Source: Opitutia bacterium ISCC 52 (lineage in GTDB: Bacteria > Verrucomicrobiota > Verrucomicrobiia > Opitutales > UBA2995). From it: a DNA stretch of 64,000 bases. Positions 18,557-35,740 of the stretch are shown here, one piece after another. The translations under genes and the position numbers were made by a program. Below the pieces are notes generated by a model, which ran no database searches, was not told where the DNA came from, and saw only the letters and a program-made list of their open reading frames with translations. The DNA lies in assembly GCA_014529675.2 (NCBI GenBank), contig CP076040.1, forward strand, positions 1,302,001 to 1,366,000. Direction: 5' to 3'. Within the stretch, counting starts at the first letter, position 1. Each line of letters starts with the position of its first letter.

Positions 18557-20667
<2,111 letters not shown>

Positions 20668-32956: not shown

Positions 32957-34042
32957 TTAACTGAAACGAGGTGCCAAGCTCGCGTGGAGTTTCGCCAAAG
33001 ATTCGACAGTGGTTTCCCAATCGATACAGGCATCTGTTATGGATACACCGTGTTGAAGGTCTTCTTTCGGTTGAGGAAATTTTTGATTTCCAGCATTGAG
33101 GTTACTTTCGATCATTAGACCTATGATTGAATGATTTCCCTGCTGAATTTGTTCAATGACCGAGTCCACGATTTTGGGTTGATTCTCATGGTTCTTCGCA
33201 CTGTTGGCGTGGGACGCGTCTACCATGATGGCTTCTTTCAATCCCGCTTTCTGCAAGTCACCTTCATATTTGGAAATATACTCAGCTTCATAGTTTGGCC
33301 CAGTTGTTCCGCCGCGTACTACCAGGTGACAGTTCTTATTCCCGCGCGTAGTTACTGCGGACGAGATACCATCTTGGTTAATACCTAAGAAGGTTTGTTC
33401 GCCACTGGCTGCCTTAATGGCATTGATGGCAGCAGTCATCGACCCGTCGATACTGTTTTTAAATCCTAAAGGCATGGAGAGACCTGATGCCATTTGCCGG
33501 TGAGTTTGGGACTCGGTGGTTCGGGCTCCGATGGCAGACCAGGAGATCAAGTCACTGATATACTGCGGTGTAATGGGATCGAGAAGTTCTGTGGCCGTTG
33601 GAACTTCCATCTCGATGAGCTTTGAAAGAAACGAACGTGCCGTTTCCAGTCCCTTTTCAAGATCGCACGAGCCATCTAAATCTGGATCCATGATCAGGCC
33701 CTTCCAACCAAGAGAAGTTCTTGGTTTTTCAAAATAGGCGCGCATGACAATGCAGAGACGATCTGAGAGCTCATTAGCAAGGCTCTTCAAACGTGACGCA
33801 TATTCGATTCCGGCATCTACATCGTGGATAGAGCAGGGGCCGACAACCACCAGGAGTCGTGAGTCATCACCAAAAATGATGTGCTCTATTTCTTCCCGTG
33901 ATTTAGATACAAATTGTGCCTGATCTTCGGACTTGGGCACTCGATCACGTAACTGCCCTGGGCTGGGAAGTGAAATCGTGCTAAGGACGTTAACGTCAGT
34001 AACTTGCGTGTGGTTTGAAACTGGTAGCGATTCTGAGCTCAT
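32957..34042 (-). CDS. 3-deoxy-7-phosphoheptulonate (DAHP) synthase, class I AroF/G/H type
   Basis: First step of the shikimate pathway: phosphoenolpyruvate plus erythrose-4-phosphate. The 361-residue protein shows LLVVVGPCSIHD (64-75), MRAYFEKPRTSLGWKGLI, SWSAIGARTTESQTHRQMASGL and MVDASHANSAKNH with the metal site, all E. coli-like class I. Which paralogue it corresponds to, and which amino acid inhibits it, is not decided here. Its promoter should lie in 34043-34307, which holds no other gene; two tandem small-RNA candidates on the same strand stand further upstream. A second shikimate gene, aroE, lies 5 kb away. Confidence 0.93.
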   Translation of the reverse strand: MSSESLPVSNHTQVTDVNVLSTISLPSPGQLRDRVPKSEDQAQFVSKSREEIEHIIFGDDSRLLVVVGPCSIHDVDAGIEYASRLKSLANELSDRLCIVMRAYFEKPRTSLGWKGLIMDPDLDGSCDLEKGLETARSFLSKLIEMEVPTATELLDPITPQYISDLISWSAIGARTTESQTHRQMASGLSMPLGFKNSIDGSMTAAINAIKAASGEQTFLGINQDGISSAVTTRGNKNCHLVVRGGTTGPNYEAEYISKYEGDLQKAGLKEAIMVDASHANSAKNHENQPKIVDSVIEQIQQGNHSIIGLMIESNLNAGNQKFPQPKEDLQHGVSITDACIDWETTVESLAKLHASLAPRFS

Positions 34043-34307: not shown

Positions 34308-34430
34308 AAAAAAAGGCAGGATGCCTACCCCTAAGCATCCTGCCATATTCTTCTTCTCAATCAGTTACCCCAAGTCTCCTTATTCAGGAGATGGTGAATT
34401 TGAAGATTGCTTTTTTAGCAACAAAGTCAA
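34308..34430 (-). ncRNA. Candidate small RNA, copy 1 of a tandem pair
   Basis: Read on the minus strand the block opens with TTGACT (34430-34425), then hairpin 1 (TTGCT/AGCAA, 34421-34407), hairpin 2 (TCTCCT/AGGAGA with loop GAATA, 34391-34375) and a single-stranded linker of about 30 bases (ACTTGGGGTAACTGATT, then purine-rich). Hairpin 3 has a perfect 10-bp stem GGCAGGATGC/GCATCCTGCC with loop TTAGGGGTAG (34344-34315) and is followed by seven T, a rho-independent terminator. No convincing reading frame spans the block. Upstream TATAAA (about 34437) could be a -10. Nearly the same block recurs 368 bases upstream. Confidence 0.65.
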
Positions 34431-34675
34431 GTAGGGATTTATAAAAAATGAAATATTTTTCAGAAGCCAGCAATTTAGGAGGTTTTTGAGTATCCTTTAG
34501 GATGAGAATAGGTGAATTTCAGAAGCAATGGGCTGTTTACTGCACTCATTATTGTGTCTGACCAAGGATGTTTACAAATTCTACAATCCTGCAAGAAGCC
34601 GAATATATAAGGCTTTGGATAATGAAGAGTGAAATCTGCAAGAACTGATTCTCGGTAAATTCGAGATATGCGTAC

Positions 34676-34799
34676 AAAAAAAGGCAGGTTGCCTACCCCT
34701 AAGCAACCTGCCATGTTCTTCTTCTTAATCAGTTACCCCAAGTCTCCTTATTCAGGAGATTGTTCTTATGAAGGTTGCTAAATTAGCAACACATGTCAA
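34676..34799 (-). ncRNA. Candidate small RNA, copy 2 of a tandem pair
   Basis: Same architecture as the block at 34308: TTGACA (34799-34794), hairpin 1 GTTGCT/AGCAAC (34790-34774), hairpin 2 TCTCCT/AGGAGA (34759-34743), the same linker, and hairpin 3 GGCAGGTTGC/GCAACCTGCC with loop TTAGGGGTAG (34712-34683) plus T7. Against copy 1 the stem of hairpin 3 has A-T exchanged for T-A at the same pair, and the loop of hairpin 1 has changed while its stem core is kept, so pairing has been preserved. TAGAAT (about 34806) is a possible -10. The start of ygfZ lies 30 bases beyond, divergent. Confidence 0.65.
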
Positions 34800-34828: not shown

Positions 34829-35740
34829 ATGTTACCTGAATTGACCACCAATGGTTACCACGTTTTTCATCCGTTTTCCTGGGTTTTGGCCGAGGGAGAG
34901 GACGCTCACGAATTCTTGCAAAGTCAGTTCAGTAATGACCTTTCTGGACTTGAGATAGGAGCTGCTTGCTATGGACTCTGGCTGGATCAAAAAGGCAAAG
35001 TTCATGGAGACAGCCAGATTATCCGAGACGGTGAGGAGCGCTTTTATATTTTCAGCTACTTCACCAAAGCGGATGATCTGATTGAAAAGTTGGAAACATT
35101 TATCGTAGCGGATGATGTTGAGCTCGAGAATTTGGGATCCGATGTAACTGGAGTTTCGTTGTTGGGATCCTCAATTGAGGAACTTGACGCATTAGATCCT
35201 GGTTCAATCTCGGAAATGGACCTGATTCGCCTCCCTGGAAGAAGAAGCTCACGACCTTCGTCGGATATCGTTTTGCCAAAGGAGAATTTGCAAAAACTGA
35301 TCGATTTGATTCAGCGGGGATGTTCGGTTTCCGAATTGGATGAATCGATGATGGAAGGAGAAAGGATTCTTCATCGTATTCCGCGAGTTCCTAACGACAT
35401 AGGGCCAAATGAATTGCCACAGGAAGGACGATTGGAAAATGAAGGGGTGAGTTTCACTAAAGGCTGTTATTTAGGGCAGGAAGTCATGTCGCGACTTCAC
35501 TCGATGGGACAAGTTAGAAGATTGGTACAATTAATTGAATCGGCGGATGCTATACCGTCTGGAGATTTTCTATATCATAAAGGGAAGAAAGTAGGGGTAG
35601 CCAAAACTTCTTTTGAGTTTGAAGAGCGTTTTTTCGGGTTGGCATTGGTAGCCAATATTGTGCCCGATCAATCTACGCTTCAGTTTGGTGATGGAAATGC
35701 TTCCGTGAAGGTTTATCACGCTGATGCCAATCATGGATAA
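34829..35740 (+). CDS. ygfZ: YgfZ/GcvT-domain folate-binding Fe-S maintenance protein
   Basis: Folate-dependent protein that helps make or repair Fe-S enzymes. The 303-residue chain has the GcvT-like N-terminal fold, with FLQSQFSNDLSGL (29-41) and CYGLWLDQKGKVHGD (49-63). Near residue 210 stands the hallmark FTKGCYLGQEVMSR, whose KGCYxGQE motif holds the essential cysteine. A beta-barrel end follows. The ATG follows an AT-rich leader without Shine-Dalgarno. Its last codons overlap the next gene (ATGGATAA). Confidence 0.9.
   Translation: MLPELTTNGYHVFHPFSWVLAEGEDAHEFLQSQFSNDLSGLEIGAACYGLWLDQKGKVHGDSQIIRDGEERFYIFSYFTKADDLIEKLETFIVADDVELENLGSDVTGVSLLGSSIEELDALDPGSISEMDLIRLPGRRSSRPSSDIVLPKENLQKLIDLIQRGCSVSELDESMMEGERILHRIPRVPNDIGPNELPQEGRLENEGVSFTKGCYLGQEVMSRLHSMGQVRRLVQLIESADAIPSGDFLYHKGKKVGVAKTSFEFEERFFGLALVANIVPDQSTLQFGDGNASVKVYHADANHG

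Follow-up and report, generated by a model that had tools for sequence, protein, structure and literature searches.

A tandem pair of predicted small-RNA genes upstream of a DAHP synthase gene in Opitutia bacterium ISCC 52 belongs to an undescribed family of the order Opitutales

The window analysed here, a stretch of 64,000 nucleotides of Opitutia bacterium ISCC 52 (contig CP076040.1), carries on its minus strand two closely similar blocks flanked by a ygfZ-like gene on one side and a DAHP synthase gene on the other (Table 1). In each block a promoter-like TTGAC is followed by a hairpin, then by a TTGGGGTAAC linker and finally by an intrinsic terminator. Direct reading of the sequence gives copy 1 the limits 34799 (TTGAC) and 34676 (last base of a T7 run); for copy 2 the corresponding limits are 34430 and 34308. 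Over 116 bases the two share 89% identity; they are offset by 368 bases at the terminators and by 369 at TTGAC, because the first spacer of copy 2 is one base shorter. The two terminators have the loop TTAGGGGTAG in common, and their stems, GGCAGGTTGC/GCAACCTGCC in one copy and GGCAGGATGC/GCATCCTGCC in the other, are distinguished by a single swapped base pair. An earlier note on this DNA had described two near-identical minus-strand blocks with a swapped terminator pair, an unchanged loop and an offset of 368 bases; the description proved exact on direct reading, and the offset holds at the terminators. These are the only full copies in the 4.8-Mb genome. Elsewhere in the window, a TPP riboswitch was found at 18567-18679 on the plus strand (60.6 bits, above the Rfam gathering score).

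Table 1. Features of the duplicated element and its neighbours, in window coordinates
Feature	Position	Strand	Basis
sRNA copy 1, predicted transcript of ~90 nt	34676..34768	-	R1 match 34767-34668, 79.9 bits; fold z -4.7; 5' end estimated from the distance to the promoter, T7 run taken as 3' end
sRNA copy 2, predicted transcript	34308..34400	-	R1 match 34399-34300, 79.8 bits; fold z -4.6
-35 box TTGACA, copy 1	34794..34799	-	TTGAC spacing, 77/118 upstream regions
-35 box TTGACT, copy 2	34425..34430	-	TTGAC spacing, 77/118 upstream regions
Palindrome TTGCTAATTTAGCAA, copy 1, probable operator over the -10 region	34775..34789	.	Unique in genome within 1 mismatch; genus copies only
Palindrome TTGCTAAAAAAGCAA, copy 2	34407..34421	.	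Sequence
5' hairpin of copy 1, UCUCCUGAAUAAGGAGA	34743..34759	-	Two-sided changes at 5/5 modelled pairs among family members
5' hairpin of copy 2	34375..34391	-	Same basis as copy 1 hairpin
Conserved linker UUGGGGUAAC, copy 1	34732..34741	-	GGGGTA here in 60/67 family members
Conserved linker UUGGGGUAAC, copy 2	34364..34373	-	Same basis as copy 1 linker
Intrinsic terminator of copy 1, GGCAGGUUGC-UUAGGGGUAG-GCAACCUGCC-U7	34676..34712	-	Loop GGGGTA 66/67; 12/13 stem pairs with two-sided changes
Intrinsic terminator of copy 2, GGCAGGAUGC-UUAGGGGUAG-GCAUCCUGCC-U7	34308..34344	-	Same basis as copy 1 terminator
ygfZ-like gene (GCV_T folate-binding domain), divergent neighbour	34829..35740	+	Pfam PF01571
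DAHP synthase gene (aroG-type), usual downstream neighbour	32957..34042	-	Pfam PF00793

Both blocks fold better than their dinucleotide shuffles (z -4.7 for copy 1 and -4.6 for copy 2), with none of 200 shuffles as good. Their covariance-model scores of 79.9 and 79.8 bits come from a model whose seed includes both window sequences, and the independent evidence is that of homologues in other genomes. A second species of the genus (G005) has both copies in the same order and with the same two terminator stems, which shows that the duplication and the swapped pair predate the split of these species.

We aligned 67 members drawn from many families, fitting the alignment to the structure; in it, 98.6% of cells pair and 17 of the 18 pairs change on both sides. 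The covariation score is 0.522, whereas shuffles gave 0.170 and slid partners never exceeded 0.109. A structure-blind MAFFT alignment gave two-sided changes at 11 of the 18 pairs, with 99.0% paired. The reading of the blocks as a duplicated small RNA with covarying stems, already advanced in the earlier note, is borne out by these changes. The loop of the 5' hairpin swaps among GNRA types (GAAA, GCAA, GUAA), UACG and a UAG type while its stem is kept, as expected for an RNA hairpin, and the terminator stem is 99.4% paired across the 67 sequences and is followed by a T-rich run. The motif GGGGUA is kept in the linker UUGGGGUAAC in 60 of the 67 members and in the terminator loop in 66, an invariance that is inflated in seed A1, partly picked by exact pattern, and less biased, though not bias-free, in set A3, which was selected on covariance score and has some loci in common with A1. 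These two motifs, which the earlier note had singled out as candidate contact sites, are among the most conserved parts of the element, and the terminator stem is almost freely rewritten. Terminators work without any particular loop sequence, and a loop that is invariant all the same probably has a role beyond termination. Our analysis thus points to a transcript of ~90 nt that would fold into two hairpins and show GGGGUA twice, once in the linker and once in the terminator loop. A single copy in G003 (L218, 9201-9301, minus strand) has a decayed 5' hairpin and linker (TTAGAGTAAATG) and a perfect terminator loop; it is possible that this is a degenerating copy, one that sets the two motifs apart from each other.

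Upstream of the RNA, TTGAC precedes the linker GGGGTA by 55-85 nt, mostly 69-74, in 77 of a non-redundant set of 118 upstream regions, compared with a mean of 4 and a maximum of 8 in shuffles; the -35 box thus keeps a fixed spacing. A TA-rich, -10-like hexamer 16 bases further on is visible in many relatives and, by inspection, TTGCA, TTGCG or TTGGC stands at the -35 place in other families. In the source genus, the interval from the conserved -35 box to the -10 position contains the palindrome TTGCTAAnTTAGCAA; in the form TTGCTAATTTAGCAA this palindrome begins five bases past TTGAC and overlaps the -10 position, and it should therefore be upstream of the transcription start. It is present in copies of this genus only and absent from other families, and its TTGCT/AGCAA arms never vary, which leaves base pairing between them unsupported. 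The earlier note had counted this palindrome as the first of three hairpins; its place in the promoter leaves the RNA with two. The palindrome is probably promoter or operator DNA for a repressor of the small RNA and not an RNA hairpin. As a marker of a wider regulon it gave nothing, since no other site in the genome lies within one mismatch, and the uniqueness of the exact form suggests a dedicated local repressor.

A covariance-model scan of related genomes, which the earlier note had named as a check, revealed covarying stems far beyond the genus. A model built from 47 diverse sequences matched 251 of the 373 genomes and 79 of the 100 genera of Opitutales (Verrucomicrobiota), including 183 of the 231 genomes of good quality, the E-values of the family models being rough. 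Positive genomes usually have 1-3 copies, and up to 6, often in tandem. By DNA search, matches were obtained in 112 of the same 373 genomes. Scanning GTDB genomes with an exact pattern gave 114 stretches, and those titles that were listed were nearly all Opitutales, Opitutaceae, Pelagicoccus, Ereboglobus, Geminisphaera or unnamed Verrucomicrobia. No member was found outside Opitutales in the genomes sampled: all 61 positives among 388 genomes of the phylum, and all 41 among 236 genomes of the class searched with a broader model, belong to this order. The broader model also recovered some genomes that the first had missed. Some very small Opitutales genomes (families f7, f12 and f26-f28) gave no match, and the family is therefore not universal in the order. 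No intact copy was found in the close relatives G001, G002 and G006, several such relatives being fragmented assemblies, and G007 has only the 5' half of the RNA, at a contig end.

Three kinds of match were discarded. A contig labelled Parcubacteria (L062, LBRC01000022.1) had appeared to hold a member outside the order; its RNA copy is at the contig edge, Opitutales sequence is present from the hairpin onward only, and the upstream part is AT-rich, unlike Opitutales, so the contig is probably chimeric. BLAST matches of 20 bases, AAGAAGAAGAACATGGCAGG, in genomes of family f10 were dropped, being probably due to chance or to coding sequence, and antisense model matches (20-33 bits) are a mirror of the terminator. 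The two blocks in the window are members of a small-RNA family that is undescribed, and the earlier interpretation was mostly right but too modest, as conservation across an order was not visible from the sequence alone.

The neighbourhood of the window copies recurs in other genomes. Among 118 copies in named contigs, ygfZ lies within 1.5 kb upstream and antisense in 79 and aroG downstream in sense in 68, with gene calls outside the window being crude longest-ORF calls. By this synteny, the ancestral locus consists of a divergent ygfZ, the small-RNA gene and then aroG in the sense direction. In seven loci (L045, L053, L065, L103, L111, L123 and L148) the RNA lies between ygfZ and mdh (malate dehydrogenase), and aroG was not found between them. 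Several families have a convergent gene downstream, coding for an FAD-binding oxidase, a type II secretion F protein, a DinB, an RmlD-like protein or a GNAT acetyltransferase; the RNA cannot be a leader or attenuator there. In six other loci (L199, L200, L202, L215, L143 and L146), a PIN/PhoH-like gene in the sense direction follows the copies at a distance of 40-500 bases, and this site is possibly a second ancestral locus. Copies of family f10 adjoin dciA, and some units of the two- or three-unit arrays beside dciA in that family (L216 4953-5596, L227 and L236) have an extra hairpin within the linker. Tandem arrays of three copies (L199 and L216) or two (L200, L210, L212, L227 and L236) recur, indicating that copy-number change is habitual in the family. 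The link to DAHP synthase proposed in the earlier note therefore stands as a matter of position, being old synteny, but not as regulation of aroG, since the RNA is kept where aroG was not found at the locus and lies elsewhere in other families.

That the RNA persists without aroG and has convergent neighbours elsewhere argues for a free-standing gene. The element has its own promoter, its own intrinsic terminator, a covarying structure and freedom from any one downstream gene, and from these features and the genomic context we infer that it is transcribed and is very probably an independent small-RNA gene. If the element acted in cis on aroG or another downstream gene, as a leader or attenuator with its terminator as the switch, this would agree with the 68 copies upstream of aroG and with the strong terminator that closes each unit. 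However, such a leader would have two full units in series before one gene in the window, would have to persist between ygfZ and mdh where aroG was not found, and is not always upstream of a gene in sense, given the convergent genes of other families. No alternative antiterminator pairing was seen either, and the terminator stem simply covaries, making this explanation very unlikely. A dispersed repeat or mobile element of the REP or MITE type whose hairpin resembles a terminator could account for genomes with as many as six copies, tandem ones among them, but hardly for a conserved promoter, a locus conserved across genera and the presence of two copies only in this genome; we regard it as more improbable still. 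The least credible of these readings is a small protein gene, starting at AUGGC before the terminator or read as UUG/AUG-GGG-UAA in the linker. Although AUG is frequent before the terminator and NUG GGG UAA is readable in many members, AUG becomes GUG, AAG or ACG in relatives, no stop is conserved, the linker reading is broken in several members, and the paired double changes alter codons in both arms. The statement in the earlier note that no reading frame explains the blocks agrees with this.

How the RNA might act is less settled than what it is. We give roughly even chances to a trans-acting small RNA in which the GGGGUA sites of the linker and of the terminator loop would pair with short C-rich stretches (UACCCC) of target RNAs in an Hfq-free manner. 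Dependence on Hfq was rejected, since a Pfam search, positive in control genomes and of limited sensitivity to very divergent Hfq, found Hfq in none of 52 Opitutales genomes, this one included. Searches for antisense words in the genome itself supported no target. Complementary sites, GTTACCCCA, were not enriched (31 against 44 for the reversed control) and few of them adjoin start codons, and TACCCC occurred near the starts of only 5 of 887 crude gene calls, which is not an enrichment, with a far-upstream control contaminated by the small-RNA gene itself. These results lower a simple model with many ribosome-binding-site targets.

The main rival to pairing is protein titration, in which the same independent RNA, like CsrB or 6S RNA, would use GGGGUA, present once in a single strand and once in a stable loop, to bind and titrate an RNA-binding protein or enzyme. 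The presence of one word in two structural settings, kept across families, speaks for titration, as do the lack of enrichment of complementary sites and the multiple and tandem copies, which raise dosage; the loop motif is also more constant than the linker, a pattern expected from a protein ligand as well. On the other hand, CsrA was not found in this genome and GGA is in neither motif, no candidate protein is known, and each RNA offers two sites only, whereas CsrB has many protein sites per RNA. Titration is thus a real possibility, though one that falls short of being probable. Under the pairing reading, the locus would hold two paralogous genes for one independent ~90-nt RNA, each with its own sigma-70-type promoter and intrinsic terminator, and in the RNA a 5' hairpin would be followed by the exposed linker UUGGGGUAAC, then by an A-rich stretch and lastly by a terminator hairpin whose loop is UUAGGGGUAG. 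The tandem copies may be redundant or dosage-raising siblings, and the operator palindrome added in the source genus may let a repressor control both. Transcription in vivo and action in trans are both our inference.

Comparison with known systems places the family within a known kind of molecule. No Rfam 15 family reached its gathering score over the element, either in the window copies or in those of ten relatives, permissive thresholds having also been tried, in line with the expectation of the earlier note that no described family would fit. The best Rfam match to copy 1 was SR1 (RF02376), at 24.5 bits and an E-value of 0.013; this is far below the gathering score of 45, SR1 did not match the relatives searched, and the identity was rejected. 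The family is like the intergenic trans-acting small RNAs of enterobacteria in having its own promoter, a length of 80-120 nt, a hairpin, an exposed linker and a U-tailed terminator. It is unlike them in that no Hfq was found in Opitutales, the terminator loop is its most conserved sequence, and it has no similarity to a named family. Sibling small RNAs such as OmrA/B, PrrF1/2, LhrC and Qrr occur as near-identical tandem or multiple copies in which seeds are kept while stems drift. The present family resembles them in its tandem copies and kept motifs, although no Rfam match was obtained at the element. With CsrB and RsmZ it shares a short motif repeated once in a loop and once single-stranded, but the motif is GGGGUA (in UUGGGGUAAC and UUAGGGGUAG) rather than ANGGA, and there are two sites. 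Membership of that group was rejected, as CsrA was not found in the one genome searched and the motifs have no GGA. Phage records gave no match to the element. The open literature, apart from subscription papers and supplementary tables, yielded no such RNA, and two surveys of structured RNAs do not mention the group in their main text. This is a new family of a known kind, the small RNA, as far as a prior description can be excluded. A review counts only 8 annotated small RNAs for the PVC group as a whole (PMC9029176).

Against this background the family stands out by its conservation across an order, by a doubled motif with an invariant terminator loop and by its setting in a lineage without detected Hfq. 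The invariance of that loop suggests that the hairpin is conserved for more than termination. We put forward, tentatively, that this could be a global regulatory RNA of an apparently Hfq-less order, whose doubled GGGGUA might be read by a new protein or RNA partner and which might then represent a new regulatory system. As such, the family offers a probe of RNA regulation in a lineage without Hfq.
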